This document shows positions 3-10,747 of a DNA stretch of 10,747 nucleotides, piece after piece (positions within the stretch are counted from its first letter, which is position 1; every line of letters starts with the position of its first letter). Location: NCBI GenBank assembly GCA_002342225.1, contig DDPO01000184.1:24424-35170 (forward strand), in the 5' to 3' direction. The DNA is from Bdellovibrionaceae bacterium UBA2466. GTDB lineage: Bacteria > Bdellovibrionota > FAC87 > UBA2466. The notes beneath the pieces were generated by a model, which worked only from the letters and a program-made list of their open reading frames with translations, was not told the origin of the DNA and did not search any database. The translations under genes and the position numbers were made by a program.

Positions 3-437
3 GCCGTAAGATCTGTGGGAAGCCAAGAGCTTCATCATATTATTAAAAATCATGAGTCGCCCACTTTTGGTTTCGCTTCTCAAAATTTTTTCTCTGAGTT
101 TTTGGCTATTCTTGAAGTGGAAAGAGAATACAGAAAGCACTTTGGGAAAATGCTTGTTGATCCTCCAATCGAAAACGAAAGAGTCCTTATTCTAAAAGCC
201 TCACCCATCGTCGAAATATCTAACCGCTGTGGTATTTCCCCCAAAGAGATTAGTTACTACAACCCTGCGCTTACTGACAGAGTCATAATTGGAAAAACCA
301 ATATTCCAAAAGGATTTAAACTTCGAGTTCCCGTTGGAAACGGTGAACTCTGCATTCGTCCGAAGAAATCTATCACTCAAAACACGAAAACTATTCCTGC
401 ACAAACGATGCGTTTTCATTTAAACTCTGAAGGGTAA
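3..437 (+). CDS. C-terminal part of an MltD-like lytic transglycosylase (partial, start lies upstream)
   Basis: The frame is open from the left edge of the window; a GTG at 15 lies inside the gene and is not its start. About 144 residues are visible. The stretch around 'HHIIKNHESPTFGFASQNF' followed by 'SEFLAILEVE' is the typical end of the catalytic SLT domain in MltD-type enzymes, where the last helices pack after the glycan groove. The catalytic Glu would be upstream and is not visible. Residues after about 55 ('ASPIVEISNRCGISPKEIS', then 'YYNPALTDRVIIG', then 'IPKGFKLRVP') look like a LysM-like module that would bind glycan strands. Family knowledge: these enzymes cleave MurNAc-GlcNAc bonds in the periplasm and leave 1,6-anhydro ends. 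The stop is followed after 18 bases by the NamZ homologue, so the two probably share a transcript. Family call fairly sure, exact orthology not. Confidence 0.75.
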   Translation, partial: AVRSVGSQELHHIIKNHESPTFGFASQNFFSEFLAILEVEREYRKHFGKMLVDPPIENERVLILKASPIVEISNRCGISPKEISYYNPALTDRVIIGKTNIPKGFKLRVPVGNGELCIRPKKSITQNTKTIPAQTMRFHLNSEG

Positions 438-455
438 ACAAATCAATCTTCGGGC

Positions 456-1634
456 ATGAGCATGAAAATCGAAACAGGACTTGAGCGATTTATAAAAAAA
501 GATTTTAACCGCTTCAAAAAAATGAAGTTGGGGCTTTTATGCAACCAAGCCTCTGTAAACACCAGTCTCAGACATGCTTCAGAACTTCTCACTCAAAAAC
601 AGTTAAAATTGAATATCAGTTGTTTTATGGGTCCTCAGCATGGCATCCGCGGAGAAAAGCAGGACAATATGGTGGAGTCTGATGACTTTATCGACGCCAA
701 AACAAAATTACCTGTTTATAGCCTTTATGGATCTTCAAGAAAACCAACTCCCTCAATTTTAAAAGATCTCGATGCATTTGTTATTGATCTTCAAGATATT
801 GGCTGCCGAATATACACTTTTATGTACACTATGCTTTATTGCATGGAAGCCGCTAAATCCCACGGCAAAAAAGTTGTCATTTTGGATCGACCCAACCCGA
901 TAGGTGGAACTCAAGTTGAGGGAAACATCCTAGATATGAACTTTGCATCGTTTGTTGGGTTGTTTCCAATGGTTACTCGTCATGGAATGACCATGGGTGA
1001 ACTAGCACTCATGTTTAATGAAGAATTAAACATTCATTGCGACTTAGAAATTATTCCAGTGAAGGGTTGGAAGCGAGATCAATACTCTGAGCATTGGGGT
1101 AGATCTTGGGTTCCCCCCTCGCCGAACATACCTATTGCGGCCTCTGCAGAGACTTTCCCTGGTACTGTTCACTTTGAAGGGACCAATGTTTCGGAGGGAA
1201 GAGGAACAACTATGCCCTTCCTCTATTTAGGAGCACCTTTTATTGATTCGGATCTCCTAGCTGAAAAAATGAATAGGCTAAAACTTCCGGGTGTGTTTTT
1301 TAGAGCCATTTTTTTTCAACCGACTTTTCATAAGGGAAAGGACCAAGTCTGTGGTGGGGTTCATTTCCACGTGCTAAACCGGAAAAAATTTAATGCCTTT
1401 GAAGCTGGCATTCATCTACTTTCTCAGATCTCACAACTGTATCCAGATGCTTTTCAATGGAAACAGCCTCCCTATGAATATGAAACAGAAAAAATGCCAA
1501 TAGACCTTATCGCTGGAACCGATGAATTGAGACTTTTAATCGAATCGAAAAAACCCATTAAAGGATTTTTGGAAAAGGCCCGTGAGGATTCAAAATCATT
1601 CTTGAAATTTCGGAAACCCTATTTAATTTATTAA
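456..1634 (+). CDS. DUF1343 / NamZ-family exo-beta-N-acetylmuramidase homologue, no signal peptide
   Basis: This is a 392-residue protein with the full set of DUF1343 (NamZ, glycoside hydrolase family GH171) landmarks: 'LLCNQAS' (27-33), 'GPQHGIRGEKQDNM' (59-72), 'LYGSSRKPT' (90-98), 'DLQDIGCRIYTF' (111-122), 'DRPNPIGG' (144-151), 'RHGMTMGELA' (175-184), 'EGTNVSEGRGTTMPF' (241-255) and 'CGGVHFHV' (299-306). Length agrees with a Rossmann-like catalytic domain plus the C-terminal NamZ domain. Characterised members release MurNAc from the non-reducing end of peptidoglycan chains. Many family members read 'PEHG' in the first motif; this one reads 'PQHG'. The N-terminus is polar and basic with no signal peptide. 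No earlier in-frame start exists, because the upstream gene's stop is in the same frame; ATG 462 is an alternative start. I see no good ribosome binding site, so coupling to the upstream gene is likely. Confidence 0.85.
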   Translation: MSMKIETGLERFIKKDFNRFKKMKLGLLCNQASVNTSLRHASELLTQKQLKLNISCFMGPQHGIRGEKQDNMVESDDFIDAKTKLPVYSLYGSSRKPTPSILKDLDAFVIDLQDIGCRIYTFMYTMLYCMEAAKSHGKKVVILDRPNPIGGTQVEGNILDMNFASFVGLFPMVTRHGMTMGELALMFNEELNIHCDLEIIPVKGWKRDQYSEHWGRSWVPPSPNIPIAASAETFPGTVHFEGTNVSEGRGTTMPFLYLGAPFIDSDLLAEKMNRLKLPGVFFRAIFFQPTFHKGKDQVCGGVHFHVLNRKKFNAFEAGIHLLSQISQLYPDAFQWKQPPYEYETEKMPIDLIAGTDELRLLIESKKPIKGFLEKAREDSKSFLKFRKPYLIY

Positions 1635-1696: not shown

Positions 1697-2071
1697 ATGC
1701 GGTTTCAAAAGTTTTTATTATTCGTTGTTGTAATTTGTTCCATCTCCTCTTTCGCAGTGAGAGCCGCGGAAGATCGCAGTGAGAGCCCGATCTTGGCTAA
1801 AAACACTTCGATTGTGCCCGAATCTGAGATTACTAAACTTCAGCAGCATTTTGACCCGAGAAAGAAGTTAGATGCTGGGGAAATTCAAAGCCTTCCAAGC
1901 TCGGCACTCAACTACTACCCCGTGTGGTACTGTGTTGCTCAATCCTACTTTTCTGGGGCTTGGTACTACTGGTACTCACCGAATTACAATTACTCACGAT
2001 TCCGAGCACTTAACGCCTGCACTCACTACAACGGCTATACCTGTTTTGTTAACTGCGAAATCAGATACTAA
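1697..2071 (+). CDS. Small exported Cys- and aromatic-rich protein, function unknown
   Basis: The product is 124 residues long. Start ATG 1697 has a GAGG ribosome binding site at 1688-1691, five bases upstream. The N-terminus is a classical signal peptide: 'MRFQK', a hydrophobic run to about residue 19, and likely cleavage after 'AVRA' (residue 23). Residues 24-70 are polar and include 'TKLQQHFDPRKKLD'. The C-terminal part (72-124) is extreme in composition: 12 Tyr, 3 Trp and 3 Phe in 53 residues, with Cys at 79, 108, 116 and 120, enough for two disulfides in the periplasm or outside. The 'RALNAC...C...C' pattern resembles small secreted DUF4189-like proteins, but I would not assign that family. 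A 14-bp direct repeat straddles the signal cleavage region. It lies upstream of the exported transglutaminase-like protein with a 106-base gap, so shared transcription is possible but not shown. Confidence 0.75.
   Translation: MRFQKFLLFVVVICSISSFAVRAAEDRSESPILAKNTSIVPESEITKLQQHFDPRKKLDAGEIQSLPSSALNYYPVWYCVAQSYFSGAWYYWYSPNYNYSRFRALNACTHYNGYTCFVNCEIRY
1752..1787 (+). repeat. 14-bp perfect direct repeat with a 22-base period
   Basis: TCGCAGTGAGAGCC occurs at 1752-1765 and again at 1774-1787, separated by 8 bases. It lies inside the small exported protein gene, around the signal peptide cleavage site. The 22-base period is not a multiple of three, so the two copies are read in different frames (FAVRA against RSESP). 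Confidence 0.8.
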
Positions 2072-2180: not shown

Positions 2181-3851
2181 GTGGATATGTACTTATATTT
2201 GTTATGTTTTTTGGTCTGCTCTTCGTCGGTTTTTGCCACCATTTTGCATCTTAGCCCGACTGAATTAGACGAAGTTAATAAACGAATAGAGCTCTTTTAT
2301 TCCGAAAATAACACTCCCAGTGTCATGAATCGGCCGACACTCAAATATGATATTCGGGAGGACCGTGTAGCTCATCCCAACCCACAGCTTGCCGGAGACC
2401 GCCAGCTTTCGCAAAACCCTTTAGCTCAACTCGCTGGCAAGAAACTCTCCAAAGAATTTAAACAATATCGGTGCGAAAAGTTTCTTAAACCCCTCTTTCC
2501 ACAAATGGATTGCGATTCAAAAATCGCCGATGCTACATGGTCGACTTTTCAGACTAACGACAAGTTATCTGATTTAACTAAAACTTGGATAGACAATCCA
2601 ACCTATCAACTTGATGAAATTCCTACTTCAGGAAGCATTGAAAATGATGCTTGGTCTGATGACTACTGGCGAACACGGTGGGGACAAACTTCTTACAGAT
2701 ACGGCTTAAGTGAGTTTAACCGTGAAACCACCTACAACGATGCAATCTCAAGTTATCAAAGCGAAACAGAGTGGAATTTTTTAGGACAAACTTTACTTCC
2801 TTTAGATATCTCAAAAAAAATTCTCTTTTGGTCCCCTGCAGAGAAATATGACCTCACTGTAGGCGATGAAACTTTCTCTTTGACCCGACAACAAAAAACT
2901 GCTGGCGCATCGAGTGTGGATTCAGAGGGCAATGTTGAAAACTGGTTTGGCATTTGCCACGGTTGGGCTCCTGCAGCCCTCATGGCACCAAGACCCACAA
3001 TACCAGTAACGACAAAAGTGAAACAGAACATCGATGTTACTTGGTTTCCAAACGACATCAAGGCGATGGTGAGTCTTTCTTGGGCAAATGGTAATTACAC
3101 CACGAATTTTATCGGTGGAAGATGTGAACTCAAAGAAGCAACTACTTTGCCTAACGGTCGAATCAAAGACCAAAGCTGCTTTGACAGTAATCCAGCAACG
3201 TTTCACTTGGCTCTTGGAAACATGATCGGAAAAGCAAAAGCTGGTTTTGTTTTTGATAAATCTTTTGATTACGAAGTCTGGAACCAACCAGTGATCGCTT
3301 ATGAAACTCTTTATTTCAATCCACTCAACACAAACTCTAGGAGTTACGATTGGCGTAAAGTAGCAGTGCCTTATGACCGTTATTTCAAGCAGCATGACCG
3401 TTTTCAACATCCGCTGTCTCGCGGACGATGGAATCCACAACTATCAGGATATGACGACTCTAAAATTCAATATATCGTAGGAGCTATCACTACGGTCGTG
3501 TACTTGGCTGAAATTCGCCCCAATCAAACCTTAGAGATTCAAGAAGATAAAAAATACCGAGAAACTTACACATACGACCTTGAAATAGAAGCAGTTAATG
3601 GCCGATGGGCTGCCTCGGGCGGGGAATGGCACGAAAACTCTCATCCCGATTTCTTATGGGTTCCTCAAAAAGGCTCAGTACCAAAAATTAATTTTGACCA
3701 AGAAGATATCACAGTCTCTCTCTCTGAAGGAGCCAATGCTCAGCTGACTGCTACTGCTCAAAAAGCAAGTCCTCTTGGGAGTCCGCTCTGTAAAGTCATT
3801 AAAGCCCTATTAGCAGAATCGACTGGGACTGATACTTACCTTTGTGAATAG
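2181..3851 (+). CDS. Exported transglutaminase-elicitor family protein (oomycete GP42-like) with a Pep-13-type motif
   Basis: The product is 556 residues from GTG 2181, which has AGGA at 2171-2174 six bases away; TTG 2178 and ATG 2187 are alternatives. A signal peptide ends near 'SVFA' (residue 19). The core matches the transglutaminase-elicitor family known from Phytophthora GP42: 'WFGICHGWAPAAL' with the likely nucleophile Cys259, 'FHLALGNMIG' with His342, 'FVFDKSFDYE' with Asp359, directly followed by 'VWNQPV' (366-371), the first six residues of the 13-residue Pep-13 elicitor. Further family-like motifs are GGEW (480-483) and HPDFLW (488-493). These enzymes form Gln-Lys isopeptide crosslinks; the catalytic residues here are assigned by motif order. 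The N-terminal 150 residues are unrecognised, and a tail after about 510 carries two Cys. Likely secreted or periplasmic. Its target may be own or foreign envelope protein; that is inference. Confidence 0.85.
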   Translation: MDMYLYLLCFLVCSSSVFATILHLSPTELDEVNKRIELFYSENNTPSVMNRPTLKYDIREDRVAHPNPQLAGDRQLSQNPLAQLAGKKLSKEFKQYRCEKFLKPLFPQMDCDSKIADATWSTFQTNDKLSDLTKTWIDNPTYQLDEIPTSGSIENDAWSDDYWRTRWGQTSYRYGLSEFNRETTYNDAISSYQSETEWNFLGQTLLPLDISKKILFWSPAEKYDLTVGDETFSLTRQQKTAGASSVDSEGNVENWFGICHGWAPAALMAPRPTIPVTTKVKQNIDVTWFPNDIKAMVSLSWANGNYTTNFIGGRCELKEATTLPNGRIKDQSCFDSNPATFHLALGNMIGKAKAGFVFDKSFDYEVWNQPVIAYETLYFNPLNTNSRSYDWRKVAVPYDRYFKQHDRFQHPLSRGRWNPQLSGYDDSKIQYIVGAITTVVYLAEIRPNQTLEIQEDKKYRETYTYDLEIEAVNGRWAASGGEWHENSHPDFLWVPQKGSVPKINFDQEDITVSLSEGANAQLTATAQKASPLGSPLCKVIKALLAESTGTDTYLCE

Positions 3852-5524: not shown

Positions 5525-6418
5525 ATGATCGAATTCTCTTACTTTTTAGGAATCGATCAAACAGGTGCAGCAGTTTGTAAGGGCAGAAAAGCTAAACCAC
5601 TCAAAGTGTGTTTGGCGAAAAAAGAGAAAAAACACTGGGCTATCTCCACAAGATCACCCTCACAACAACCACTGACTTTACCAGCCCTGACCCCCTCTCA
5701 CTTAAAAGACCTGTTGGATAAGTTTGAAATTGATTGGCCCAATCCAAAACTAGCTATCCTTGCAGACTCTGTTTTTGGAATGCCCAAAGGGGTATTTCCC
5801 AAAGTTAAAGGTCGTAATTCGCATGAAAACCTATGGGAACTCTTTTCACAAACTTTAAATCACTCGCTCGGCGAAGCCATTTTCGGGATGAAGGTTTCTG
5901 AAATTTTTTTCACTCGTTTTTTAAAATCTAAGACTGATATCCCCAAGCGCGATTGTGAGGAGGTCTCACGTTCCAACTCTCTCTTTACAACTCGTCCATT
6001 TCAAAAAAACATTCAAACCGGAAGCTACCGTATTTGGAGAGATTTGGTCTCTGAAACGACTAATCCATGGATTAATATCTGGCCTTTCGCCACCCCAGAG
6101 GATTTTATAATGACCACAGGATGGCTTTTTGAAGGATACCCTTCGCTGGTATGGAGGGATCTGTTGGGTTTACAAAACCGAAACAGTTTGGCTCTCATTA
6201 AAGTTCTAAAATGCACAAGTATGACCAAACTTTTCAGCTTTGATTCTTTTTCTTATCTAAAATCTGATCCAGACCTGTGCGATGCCGCAGTACTTGCTTT
6301 GGGAGGCGTCTTGCTGCAAGATCAGAAAAGACTTCTTGAACCTTTTCCCAACTTCTGGGAACAACCAACTAACTCTACCGAAGGGTGGATATCTGGACTC
6401 ACGAAGAAAAAAGACTAG
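5525..6418 (+). CDS. DUF429-like predicted RNase H-fold protein
   Basis: The product is 297 residues. The start 'FLGIDQTGA' (first strand, Asp11), 'LAILADSVFGMPKG' (77-89, Asp81), 'EGYPS' (203-207, Glu203) and 'DLCDAAVLALGG' (250-261, Asp253) follow the order of the acidic motifs in DUF429-type predicted nucleases (G-I-D, D-x-x-x-G-x-P, E-x-[HY]-P, D-A-x-x-A-A). These are a divergent RNase H-like fold; activity is predicted for the family rather than well proven. No signal peptide or membrane segment is seen, so it is cytoplasmic. It begins 11 bases after the glutaredoxin stop with only a weak ribosome binding site and is followed 7 bases on by the J-domain gene, so it is mid-operon. Its link to glutathione chemistry is unexplained. 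Family call moderately sure. Confidence 0.7.
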   Translation: MIEFSYFLGIDQTGAAVCKGRKAKPLKVCLAKKEKKHWAISTRSPSQQPLTLPALTPSHLKDLLDKFEIDWPNPKLAILADSVFGMPKGVFPKVKGRNSHENLWELFSQTLNHSLGEAIFGMKVSEIFFTRFLKSKTDIPKRDCEEVSRSNSLFTTRPFQKNIQTGSYRIWRDLVSETTNPWINIWPFATPEDFIMTTGWLFEGYPSLVWRDLLGLQNRNSLALIKVLKCTSMTKLFSFDSFSYLKSDPDLCDAAVLALGGVLLQDQKRLLEPFPNFWEQPTNSTEGWISGLTKKKD

Positions 6419-6425
6419 TCGACTC

Positions 6426-7595
6426 ATGCAATCTTTGATTTTTTTCTACCTTGTAGCAATAGGCACACGAGCCTCTGGAAACCCCTACCAAGTTCTTGGC
6501 GTTTCACCCAATGCTAATGAAGATGAAATCATCAAAGCCTACCGAGAAAAAGCAAAACAATACCATCCTGACGTTTCTTCACTTTCTATAGAAGAGGCCA
6601 ACCGAAGATTTAAAATGATACAAGCGGCATTTGAAGAAATTCAAAAGCAGAAAACGCGGCCCAAATATTCCACGCAACAGGAAAACGATAATAGAGACAG
6701 GAAAGAAGAAGAACGAAGGATCGCTAGCAGAGCGGCTAGAGCTGTTCTCGAGTCCGATTGGAGCCGAGGAGTTTTTAATGAGTCAACGCTCGATAAAATG
6801 CCTACCCTAGCATCTAAAAAAGATAAGAGATCCGGCTTTCATCTGGGCCGCGGGCCAAAAGAGGATGGAGAATGGTTGGCTTTAAGTGAGTTTCTAAGAA
6901 GTCATGAAAGAGAGATATTGAGTCAAAATCCAGATCCTGAGACATTGAAAAAGATTTTATCAAAAATTGATCTCTACACCGAATTCACGGGGGAATCGGT
7001 TAAAGACTTGAGAAAGGGTCTATTAACTCCGTTCGAACAATTTATCCTTGAAAAAACCCAAGACAAAACTCTTTTTCTAGAAGCTATGGAGGACCGATTG
7101 AGCCGATCGAGTCGTACTGGAGCTTTTCCTTTGTTCTCTGCGGAACCCTCTGAGCGGGAAAAAGTTTTTGGAAACGCTCCGGAACTTTATGCTCGAAAAT
7201 TTGGTTCCCTTCCAAAGTCTGGAGAAAGCCCTGAACTTCAATTGGCAAAAGAAATATCAAAAATGGCTTTTTCTCGGACATTACAAAACCCATCTCGACT
7301 CCATGAGCTAGATTATTTAATAAGAAGTGTCCCTTCTGCTCTGACTTCAGAAGAAAAACTTCTTTTTCTGGCTGACGTCATGACCGAGGTTGATTCGATC
7401 CCCAAGAGCAAAATATCTAGAGGAGCTTTTGAGGATTTCAAAAACCGTATCAATGGAAAAATCCAGCGCGTTTTTAGCACCCACCCAGACCTCAAAGCCA
7501 AGTACCAAAAAAAAGGAAGTTGGTTCAATGCTCTCTTTGGAGGCGCCAACTCTTGCGAAATTTTGCTAGGAAGACTCTCGCGGGCTAGTTCGTAG
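6426..7595 (+). CDS. J-domain (DnaJ-type) protein with signal-like N-terminus and unknown C-terminal region
   Basis: The product is 389 residues from ATG 6426; a longer reading from 6282 would overlap the upstream gene by more than 130 bases and is rejected. Residues 19-75 form a J domain: 'NPYQVLGVSPNANEDEI', the HPD signature at 47-49, and a fourth helix ending near 'AAFEEIQ'. A basic linker rich in Lys, Arg and Glu follows (about 78-110). The remaining 280 residues are mostly predicted helix with no domain I recognise; the zinc-finger and C-terminal substrate domains of true DnaJ are absent. The first 16 residues ('MQSLIFFYLVAIGTRA') are hydrophobic and look like a weak signal peptide or membrane anchor, odd for a protein expected to meet cytosolic Hsp70. 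No clear ribosome binding site is present, so translation probably depends on coupling to the upstream gene 7 bases away. Confidence 0.8.
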   Translation: MQSLIFFYLVAIGTRASGNPYQVLGVSPNANEDEIIKAYREKAKQYHPDVSSLSIEEANRRFKMIQAAFEEIQKQKTRPKYSTQQENDNRDRKEEERRIASRAARAVLESDWSRGVFNESTLDKMPTLASKKDKRSGFHLGRGPKEDGEWLALSEFLRSHEREILSQNPDPETLKKILSKIDLYTEFTGESVKDLRKGLLTPFEQFILEKTQDKTLFLEAMEDRLSRSSRTGAFPLFSAEPSEREKVFGNAPELYARKFGSLPKSGESPELQLAKEISKMAFSRTLQNPSRLHELDYLIRSVPSALTSEEKLLFLADVMTEVDSIPKSKISRGAFEDFKNRINGKIQRVFSTHPDLKAKYQKKGSWFNALFGGANSCEILLGRLSRASS

Positions 7596-7761: not shown

Positions 7762-8037
7762 ATGGGTATGAATGATCAAATCCATGTAAAAGTTCGTTCT
7801 ATTGTTGAAAAATTTTTAGACAAAAACCATAGTTCAGAAATCTCTGATACTACCAAGCTTATTACGTTAGGGTATATTGATTCCTTTAGCATTGTAGAAC
7901 TCATCTCAATCCTTGAAACGGAATTTTCATTTCAATTTGATCCAGCGACATTGAAACTTGAAACATTTGACTCGATCAATAGCATTTCTGAAGCAGTCGA
8001 ACTAGCAACCCAAACTAAATTTCTTAAACATGCCTAA
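7762..8037 (+). CDS. Stand-alone acyl/peptidyl carrier protein
   Basis: This is a 91-residue acidic helical protein with the carrier-protein signature 'LGYIDSFSIVELI', where Ser41 in DSF would take the 4'-phosphopantetheine arm. 'TTKLITLGYIDS' precedes the motif and 'FDSINSISEAVELA' forms the last helix, as in the family. DSF differs from the DSL usual in fatty-acid ACP, which favours a specialised carrier. No fatty-acid genes are nearby. The next gene, an adenylation enzyme, starts inside the last codons of this one (8-base overlap), so they are translationally coupled and probably partners: the enzyme would load its acid onto this protein as a thioester. ATG 7768 is an alternative start. 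No phosphopantetheinyl transferase is in the window. Confidence 0.88.
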   Translation: MGMNDQIHVKVRSIVEKFLDKNHSSEISDTTKLITLGYIDSFSIVELISILETEFSFQFDPATLKLETFDSINSISEAVELATQTKFLKHA

Positions 8038-9538
8038 ACGACTAGACGAACTTATACTTCACAGTTTATCAGCTTTTCCAAACAGGACCGCAGTTTGTGG
8101 CCCGGATAGGACGTTAACGTTTTCTGAGCTTAATGACTCCATCCTGAAAGCCACCTATTGGCTGAGATCTCTTGAAGTAGGCAAAGGTGACAGAGTAGGA
8201 GTCTGTCTAGAAAGATCTGCCTTTAGTATTGTAATGTTTCACGCGATATCGCGCCTTGGGGGAGTTTATGTGCCCCTCGACAATGAAGGGCCCTCGCAAC
8301 TCGTATGTGACGTGATATCGGACTGTACCCCCAAAATAGTCTTGTGTGACACAGACAAAATGTTGCAACTGGCGGGTCAAATTTCCGACAAGTCTAAACT
8401 AATAACCGTAAAGAGAGACGCAAAAGGAAATATTTCATGGTCGGAAATTGAGTCAATGTCGAAACCAACTGACATCCGTAACGAAGTGGATTGGAATGAC
8501 CCAGCCTACATTCTCTATACTTCGGGCTCTACTGGGCAACCCAAAGGTGTCTGTTTAAGCCATGGTAATGCGATTGCTTTTATTGAATGGGCGGCCAAAC
8601 TGACAAATGCTAACGAAGATGATGTCTTCGCTAGTCATGCTTCATTCGGCTTCGGAATATCTGTTTACGATATCTACGTGCCATTGCTCAGCGGATCCAA
8701 ACTAGCTATTATTCCCGAAAGTATTCGTAATAATGGTGCGGCCATTTGCACATTTATCACTAGTCACAAAATCAATCATTGGTACTCGGTACCCTCTGCT
8801 CTTCTTTTGCTTATTCGTAGTCAGGAGTTCAAAACCTTGCCGAGCACCCAGTTTAAGACCATAAAATATGCTGGCGAACCACTACCCAACAGATTTGCTA
8901 ATGTTTTGCGAACAAAGTTTTGCAATAGCAGAATCTTCAATTTTTATGGCAATACTGAGACCAATGTCTGCACTTATTTTGAAATTAAATCAGAGCTTGA
9001 TCCATCAGATCCTCCAGTGCCGATTGGTTTTCCCTCCTGTGGAAATCGAGTCTGGATTGAAGAGGCCGGAATAAATGGAGTTAATCGCCAAGGAGAGCTC
9101 GTAGTGCAAGGTCCTACGGTTATGCTCGGATACTGGGGTGACACGTTTAATACTGATCGAGTTTATCGAACTCGTGATCTTGTAAGAGAAACAGGAGATG
9201 GATGTTTTCTTTACATCTGCAGAGTCGATAATGTCGTTAAGATTAGGGGCCACAGAGTTGAAATTGGTGAGGTCGAGTCCCACCTCATGAGGCACCCGGA
9301 TCTTCGCGATGTGGCTGTTGTTTGTGTTGGCGAGATTGAAAATCGAAAACTGATTGCATACGTAGTTCCTAACGACCCTCAATCGCTACCAACTTTAGTG
9401 GGTTTGAAGGAGTTTTTAGCAAAACACCTCCCGCCTTACAAAATCATTTCTATGGTTCATTTTGTGCAAACTCTTCCCAAAAATATTAACGGTAAGATCG
9501 ATCGAAAAAAATTGAAATCAGAGGCGGAGGCAGCATAA
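8030..9538 (+). CDS. Stand-alone adenylation enzyme (NRPS A-domain type acid:carrier-protein ligase)
   Basis: The 502-residue protein is a complete ANL-superfamily enzyme without condensation or carrier domains. Core motifs: A3 'YTSGSTGQPKG' (163-173), A4 region 'FGFGISVYDIY' (206-216), A5 'NFYGNTETN' (304-312), A7 'YRTRDLV' (379-385), A8 'RVDNVVKIRGHRVEIGEVE' (398-416), and A10 'NINGKIDRK' with the catalytic Lys489. It would use ATP to make an acyl-AMP and pass the acyl group to the carrier protein encoded just upstream. Aligned by eye to GrsA, the specificity positions read G-I-Y-Y-K-A-F-V-C-K. Gly209 replaces the Asp235 that holds the alpha-amino group, and Lys279 sits at position 299, so the substrate may not be an ordinary alpha-amino acid. 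It starts in an 8-base overlap and lacks its own ribosome binding site. Activity class is sure, substrate unknown. Confidence 0.9.
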   Translation: MPKRLDELILHSLSAFPNRTAVCGPDRTLTFSELNDSILKATYWLRSLEVGKGDRVGVCLERSAFSIVMFHAISRLGGVYVPLDNEGPSQLVCDVISDCTPKIVLCDTDKMLQLAGQISDKSKLITVKRDAKGNISWSEIESMSKPTDIRNEVDWNDPAYILYTSGSTGQPKGVCLSHGNAIAFIEWAAKLTNANEDDVFASHASFGFGISVYDIYVPLLSGSKLAIIPESIRNNGAAICTFITSHKINHWYSVPSALLLLIRSQEFKTLPSTQFKTIKYAGEPLPNRFANVLRTKFCNSRIFNFYGNTETNVCTYFEIKSELDPSDPPVPIGFPSCGNRVWIEEAGINGVNRQGELVVQGPTVMLGYWGDTFNTDRVYRTRDLVRETGDGCFLYICRVDNVVKIRGHRVEIGEVESHLMRHPDLRDVAVVCVGEIENRKLIAYVVPNDPQSLPTLVGLKEFLAKHLPPYKIISMVHFVQTLPKNINGKIDRKKLKSEAEAA

Positions 9539-9557
9539 ATTTCATTTCTCTGAGCCC

Positions 9558-10747
9558 ATGAAAAATCAAAAAACATTCTATGATGTTGTTATTTGCGGCG
9601 CCGGCATTTCGGGGCTTTACTGTGCTATGAGGCTTGCTGAGCACAACGATGTCAACCAAGCCCCCAAAAAAATAGGTTTGATCGAGCAAAGCAATCGAAT
9701 TGGGGGTCGAATCTATACCGAATTTATGGATCAGGCACCCGGCATTCCAGTAGAGTTAGGCGCCATGCGGTTTCTCGATTCTCACATTATAGTCAAGAGC
9801 CTAGTCAATCGGTATCGTCTCCAGAAGAGTGCCTTCGGAGTAGATGAACATAAGAAATTTCATCTAAGAGGTTTGCTACACAATGAAAACTGCAATGACT
9901 TTCCTAGATTTAATCTTAGACCAAGTGAAACCGGGAAGAATCCGGAAGAATTATTAGCTTACGCAATAAATCGAGTCATTCCGCGCTCTATGTGGAAGGA
10001 CCTCAATCAGGTATTTAAGAAGCGAGATGTACGATTCAGTAACGACGTCTACGACGATATCTCAGTAAACGATTTTGGGTTCCAAAGTCTCTTGCAAAGC
10101 TTAATATCAAATGAAGCCTTCGAGCTGGTTAAAAAAACGACTGGGTACGACTCAACTTTCTTCAACTGGAATGCCTTGCAAGCCATTCGTCAAATTGTAA
10201 ATGATTTATCTTCAAAAACCCGTTCTTGGCAGCTAAACCAAGGGATGTCACAACTATCCGAAAATCTCCTAAAGGATTTCGTACAGTTCGGAGGAAACGT
10301 TTGTCTTGGCTCAAAGATCATCAAAATAGAACTCAAGAATCATTCCAAAAACCAATTCATCGAATGCGAGGTGGCCACTACCGACGGTAAGTCATTTACG
10401 CTCGGGACTAAGCAATTGATCCTTGCTGTTCCAGCAGATGCGCTGCGACCTTTGCTCATATCGCCAGAATTAAATAACCACCAAGAAGTTGAACTTAAAA
10501 ACAGATTGAATGCAGTCTATCCGCAACCAGGATTTAAACTTTTTCTAGCCTTTAATGAACCTTGGTGGCGAACAAAAGATTTTCGATCCGGCTCCATCGT
10601 GTCCGACAGTCCGCTCCGCATGACTTACTTTAGTAAGACGTCCGAGGAATGCGGCGGAAGTAAGGGTGACACTCGTTGCCTTGCATTGGCTTCTTATGCT
10701 GACATGGAGTCTTTTTACTTCTGGAATTCCTACAGGACAAAGGGGGG
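9558..10747 (+). CDS. FAD-dependent amine oxidase, L-amino-acid-oxidase-like (partial, runs off the right edge)
   Basis: The frame stays open for 396 codons from ATG 9558 to the window edge, 19 bases after the adenylation gene. The N-terminus has the Rossmann FAD motif 'VVICGAGISGLYCAMRL' (10-26), an acidic strand end 'IGLIEQ' (39-44), 'RIGGRIYTE' (47-55) and 'ELGAMRF' (66-72). The ELGxMR form is typical of L-amino-acid oxidases, in which the Arg contacts the substrate carboxylate. 'SWQLNQGMSQLSENL' (223-237) and 'LILAVPADALRPLL' (287-300) are the later FAD- and substrate-domain landmarks of the flavin amine oxidase family. It would convert an amine or amino acid to an imine with release of peroxide, probably in the cytoplasm, since no signal peptide is seen. 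The context suggests a tailoring step beside the carrier protein and adenylation enzyme. The C-terminal FAD-binding end is not visible. Confidence 0.85.
   Translation, partial: MKNQKTFYDVVICGAGISGLYCAMRLAEHNDVNQAPKKIGLIEQSNRIGGRIYTEFMDQAPGIPVELGAMRFLDSHIIVKSLVNRYRLQKSAFGVDEHKKFHLRGLLHNENCNDFPRFNLRPSETGKNPEELLAYAINRVIPRSMWKDLNQVFKKRDVRFSNDVYDDISVNDFGFQSLLQSLISNEAFELVKKTTGYDSTFFNWNALQAIRQIVNDLSSKTRSWQLNQGMSQLSENLLKDFVQFGGNVCLGSKIIKIELKNHSKNQFIECEVATTDGKSFTLGTKQLILAVPADALRPLLISPELNNHQEVELKNRLNAVYPQPGFKLFLAFNEPWWRTKDFRSGSIVSDSPLRMTYFSKTSEECGGSKGDTRCLALASYADMESFYFWNSYRTKG

Follow-up and report, generated by a model that had tools for sequence, protein, structure and literature searches.

A GP42-type transglutaminase homologue in a Bdellovibrionaceae genome and the bacterial relatives of the oomycete enzyme

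The GP42 transglutaminase of Phytophthora is recognised by plants, and its Pep-13 peptide is a classic epitope of plant immunity. Here we describe a GP42 homologue encoded in a stretch of 10,747 nucleotides (the window) from Bdellovibrionaceae bacterium UBA2466 (contig DDPO01000184.1, positions 24,424 to 35,170 of the forward strand) and compare it with the described members of its family. According to a 2016 review (PMC4915311), GP42 homologues are limited to oomycetes and some marine Vibrio, and the same text, citing Reiss 2011, gives the published view that oomycetes owe the gene to a Vibrio-type protein. In a 2023 work classifying papain-like enzymes (PMC10318531), GP42 is said to have no His at the canonical place; its His directly follows the Cys and contacts either a beta-2 Asn or an Asp of a helix outside the core. 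The microbial transglutaminase of Streptomyces mobaraense, likewise papain-like, is described there as having His and Asp swapped, with the Asp essential. Among open-licence papers, titles and abstract openings yielded none on bacterial GP42 proteins outside Vibrio.

The window protein matched the family PF16683 (TGase_elicitor) at 115.5 bits, against a curated cut-off of 25. Its closest relative in both sequence and fold was GP42, represented by PDB entry 3TW5, the Phytophthora sojae enzyme from which Pep-13 derives (sequence match, 91 bits; structural alignment, 27% identity), and the shared fold is papain-like, with proteases as the second-best structural matches. Searches of NCBIfam and of a defence-system library gave no match. 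Membership in the GP42 family is as firm as sequence and predicted fold can make it. A first-pass annotation of this DNA had proposed such a profile search, and its claim of an intact, apparently exported GP42-type homologue in a non-Vibrio bacterium is borne out. Our favoured reading, to which we give a rough probability of 0.6, is a papain-fold PF16683 enzyme, most likely secreted, that would cross-link envelope or extracellular proteins of its own cell or of prey, in a family whose oomycete branch most likely arose from a Myxococcota-type protein. Transglutaminase chemistry is our best guess for the window protein, and a role at the envelope or on prey is a weaker one. The gene and its parts are as follows.

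2187..3851, plus strand: GP42-type transglutaminase homologue, 554 amino acids from the ATG at 2187 (554 codons plus stop)
2187..2237, plus strand: probable Sec signal peptide, residues 1-17 (MYLYLLCFLVCSSSVFA), judged by eye from the sequence
2238..2522, plus strand: N-terminal helical domain, residues 18-112, from predicted helices; possibly a pro-domain
2523..2549, plus strand: linker of low confidence in predicted local distance difference test (pLDDT) scores, residues 113-121; possible processing site
2544..3833, plus strand: catalytic part, residues 120-549, aligning to 3TW5 164..528
2955..2960, plus strand: C257-H258, aligned with the 'CH' pair of GP42 (C290-H291)
3204..3206, plus strand: H340, a conserved His in predicted helix 336-349, from alignment and predicted structure
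3255..3257, plus strand: D357, an invariant Asp on predicted strand 354-358, from alignment and predicted structure
3276..3293, plus strand: VWNQPV, the Pep-13 core, including N366 (N394 of GP42), from sequence and alignment

By alignment, the window protein has Cys, His and Asn at the GP42 places (C257, H258 and N366), with GP42 numbering anchored on its mutated Cys, presumably C290. Conservation was counted in an 85-row alignment of the window protein with 84 of its 120 best-listed homologues. C257, D357 and N366 are each present in 85 of 85 rows, column 258 holds His in 70, Asp in 14 and Asn in one, and H340 is kept in 81, the other four having a different residue there while all retaining C257. 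N366 is the third residue of Pep-13 and directly precedes predicted strand 367-378; it is most likely the beta-2 Asn of the classification, and a catalytic role for it would explain why the Pep-13 motif is fixed. The first-pass annotation had instead proposed a triad of Cys259, His342 and Asp359 (C257, H340 and D357 here), which is probably wrong: PMC10318531 names a Cys-His pair with Asn or Asp, and H340 is predicted in a helix and lost in four of the 85 rows. In the mechanism that we propose, C257, aided by H258 and N366, would react with a protein Gln to give a thioester and hand the acyl group to Lys, so that extracellular or envelope proteins, the cell's own or those of prey, become cross-linked.

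Export through the Sec signal appears likely, and the invariance of two cysteines, C313 and C331 (85 of 85 aligned homologues), fits an exported protein. Ahead of the part alignable to 3TW5 (120..549), the N-terminal domain is predicted to form helices at 24-37, 44-48, 78-87 and 89-103, and residues 11-110 have pLDDT values of 81-97 (10-residue means). Residues 113-121 are the sole segment of at least three residues with pLDDT below 50, and a relative with Cys-Asp in place of Cys-His (P0105) also has a low-pLDDT stretch, at 135-144. A low-confidence linker following a helical N-terminal domain suggests a zymogen. On the predicted model, the protein may be held in this form until the N-terminal domain is removed, and cleavage at the 113-121 linker would release it.

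The family is widespread in bacteria. PF16683 was found in 183 of 324 Bdellovibrionota genomes (at least 80% completeness requested, own genome counted) and in 80 of 283 sampled genomes of Myxococcota, the phylum of Nannocystis exedens (at least 90% completeness requested), and in none of 14 control genomes. Bdellovibrionota and Myxococcota are both rich in predators. Counts of this order in two phyla make the restriction to oomycetes and Vibrio, as worded in PMC4915311, untenable. The prevalence counts cover Bdellovibrionota and Myxococcota. Species genomes were also scanned with a pattern built around the oomycete-like type, which biases the outcome; 516 stretches encoding relatives were found, and the 79 loci listed from them bear titles that name Myxococcota, Deltaproteobacteria, Oligoflexia, Bacteriovoracales, or plain 'bacterium' or 'proteobacterium'. 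Phages gave no family match, viral contigs gave eight pattern matches and no confirmed relative, and plasmid carriage was seen in one record, from Vibrio owensii.

The genome of UBA2466 encodes three family copies, one with Cys-Asp for Cys-His. This Cys-Asp copy (locus L173, 1564-3168, on contig C84) is syntenic and retains Cys-Asp in all six genus genomes, four of which have it as the sole family copy found; the copies at loci L164 and L170 read CHGW at the active site. Among the 120 best-listed homologues, 24 likewise have Cys-Asp, and Cys-Asn occurs in 6 of 12 further, hand-picked Myxococcota loci. The Myxococcota PF16683 proteins L155-L158, L160 and L161 share WWGHCNGW (Cys-Asn) and form a separate clade (support 100/100). 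A compensating change was sought in the 15 Cys-Asp or Cys-Asn rows of the 85, where no column turns wholly to His. Column 468 (nucleotides 3588-3590) holds His in 9 of these 15 rows versus 10 of the 70 Cys-His rows, a shift possibly linked to the altered active site, and the strongest other shift is at Y362, which is Tyr in 61 of the 70 Cys-His rows and Ala or Ser in 10 of the 15. The swapped His and Asp of the S. mobaraense enzyme, as given in PMC10318531, offer a possible parallel. Should the Cys-Asp copies prove to be active enzymes, the account of GP42 now accepted, with its Cys-His pair, will need widening.

Phylogeny bore out the view of the first-pass annotation that this homologue bears on how the family moved between oomycetes and bacteria: a tree with oomycete, Vibrio and other bacterial sequences regroups oomycete GP42. 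The tree has 96 rows (21 rows of an earlier quick tree, mostly near-copies, were dropped and 16 added; L029 is absent from the trees because its pattern was not found). Its 16 eukaryote rows were chosen from 120 proteins and its Myxococcota rows were hand-chosen, for the most part among the results of searching with the oomycete-like type. Of the 36 Bdellovibrionota rows, six were labelled by similarity, and L045, L053 and L055 count as Myxococcota without bearing a Myxococcota name. The eukaryote rows form one clade (100/100) inside a 43-row clade (97/97) that also holds 21 Myxococcota-labelled, five unnamed and one Oligoflexia rows. The window protein falls in a 35-row clade (100/96) together with 28 other Bdellovibrionota-labelled rows, five from Myxococcota and the V. 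owensii protein. Repeating the analysis without seven long-branched or unusual rows preserved all three groups (eukaryotes, 100/100; Myxococcota-type, 97/94; window/Vibrio, 100/93).

An insert of four cysteines before WFGxCH follows the same lines. It is present in all 16 eukaryote rows, including GP42 of P. sojae, in 13 of 38 Myxococcota-labelled rows (strict pattern; L045, L053 and L055 included), with eight more holding at least three Cys, and in one of 36 Bdellovibrionota-labelled rows, namely that from Oligoflexia. The bacterial window protein, unlike P. sojae GP42, lacks the insert that marks the oomycete/Myxococcota-type subfamily, and its SPAEKYD motif and place in the tree put it in the Vibrio/Bdellovibrionota-type subfamily. 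There it is joined by the V. owensii plasmid protein (L119, NZ_CP025798.1, annotated as a ricin-type lectin), which aligns with 97% of its length at 30% identity (230 bits), carries SPSEKYD and also lacks the insert but, unlike the window protein, is plasmid-borne and ends in a ricin-type lectin domain. Of the bacterial proteins sampled, those nearest the oomycete ones come from Myxococcota and Oligoflexia (L007/L037, L049 and L120); they share PF16683 with the window protein but differ from it in having the cysteine-rich insert; the Oligoflexia protein (L007 1-3363) combines five PKD stretches, the GP42-like domain and two PPC stretches. As a separate observation, a GP42 homologue labelled as from the fungus Catenaria anguillulae (P0327) groups with a Lagenidium protein (96/98) within the oomycete clade, through either another transfer event or mixed-up samples.

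Taken with the tree, these features suggest a Myxococcota-type protein, rather than a Vibrio-type one, as the most likely source of the oomycete branch. The published alternative, descent from a Vibrio-type protein, has in its favour that the family is present in Vibrio, and we now regard it as improbable. A clade of oomycetes and Vibrio was rejected (p 0.000409; p 6.6e-5 in a second test), the insert found in all 16 eukaryote rows and in many of Myxococcota type is missing from the one Vibrio protein compared, and 3TW5 is matched at 287 bits by an Oligoflexia protein versus 91 by the window protein. One result weighs against a Myxococcota-type source: a grouping of the eukaryotes with all 41 rows of the window/Vibrio side was not rejected (p 0.399). 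The approximately unbiased (AU) test permits a basal position of the oomycete branch on that side (p 0.40), which would suit a Vibrio-type origin, and the nesting among Myxococcota-type proteins rests on branch support and the four-cysteine insert.

The function that we favour, cross-linking, also has competitors. The enzyme could be a papain-like cysteine protease or a Gln deamidase acting on prey or own proteins, cross-linking being a later oomycete use; the papain-like fold, the proteases among the second-best structural matches and the variable bacterial active sites (the Cys-Asp and Cys-Asn proteins counted above) all agree with this. We nonetheless think it rather unlikely, given that the window protein has Cys, His and Asn at the places that PMC10318531 names for GP42 and is nearest GP42 in sequence and fold. 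That these genes are functionless accessory copies, decaying or neutral, seems very improbable: the window copy is indeed gone from its syntenic place in two genus genomes (L188 and L189), but its reading frame is intact, its active site is conserved, and nonsynonymous divergence (dN) is well under synonymous divergence (dS) in the compared pairs, which are mostly saturated; the sole clearly unsaturated pair, of Cys-Asp copies, has dN 0.04 and dS 0.18.

As the first-pass annotation had read from the sequence, VWNQPV of the window protein equals the first six residues of Pep-13 and is followed by the divergent IAYETLY, so that the full peptide is absent. Full Pep-13 is an oomycete trait and does not define the enzyme family, and 104 window-type homologues among the best-listed 120 contain VWNQP. 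Having VWNQPV in common is no sign of a special oomycete link of the window protein, because that protein groups with the Vibrio homologue while the oomycete proteins are nearer the Myxococcota type. Four of the 120 proteins in the L007-type set (P0140, P0146, P0153 and P0179) read VWNQPVRGFKV, matching the 13-residue Pep-13 through position 11. Having only six, the window protein looks a poor candidate for plant recognition, and Myxococcota-type proteins look better ones. The Myxococcota/Oligoflexia type of these four suggests that they are bacterial; if so, it becomes directly testable whether plants recognise bacteria through Pep-13. We can sketch a wider picture, tentative and with the odds somewhat against it: GP42-type proteins would be a large secreted family of predator-rich phyla, with a Myxococcota-like donor to the oomycetes; Pep-13 would represent the active-site strand of an ancient enzyme from bacteria, maybe also letting plants sense soil bacteria; and a stable Cys-Asp would have replaced Cys-His within the family. 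The likely source of Pep-13 shifts away from Vibrio, and bacterial enzymes become available for testing the GP42 mechanism.

The window copy lies downstream of NamZ and is flanked by genes for a small exported protein and a GCS2 ligase, and the same genes surround the copy in one other genus genome (G003). Two more (G002 and G005; loci L188 1318-5406 and L189 1354-5467) have NamZ, the small protein and GCS2 together without a transglutaminase, an empty syntenic place that makes the window copy accessory. The small protein (window 1697-2071) has 124 residues, looks exported and has a conserved C-terminus containing Tyr/Trp and Cys; it occurs in four of six genus genomes (own counted) and in none of 53 other relatives searched, and had no match in Pfam or NCBIfam. 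We rejected it as the cognate substrate because it also stands at the NamZ/GCS2 locus of G002 and G005, where the transglutaminase is missing. A lipoprotein-like QYP-repeat protein adjoins the C164-type copy (L174 7709-8136; L164 5682-6044); it was discarded as a partner since it occurs in stretches of G001, G002, G004 and G006 without a transglutaminase, although two of these stretches span little sequence (L185, a contig of 3.7 kb, and L187, 3.9 kb at a contig end). No neighbour gene behaves as a partner of the family copies. Elsewhere in the window, a carrier protein, an AMP-binding ligase and an open reading frame that looks flavoprotein-like by eye stand in a row at 7762-10747 and are perhaps a small biosynthetic cluster. 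The earliest start of the open reading frame with a DnaJ domain at 6282-7595 overlaps the preceding frame, and its true start is probably further in.
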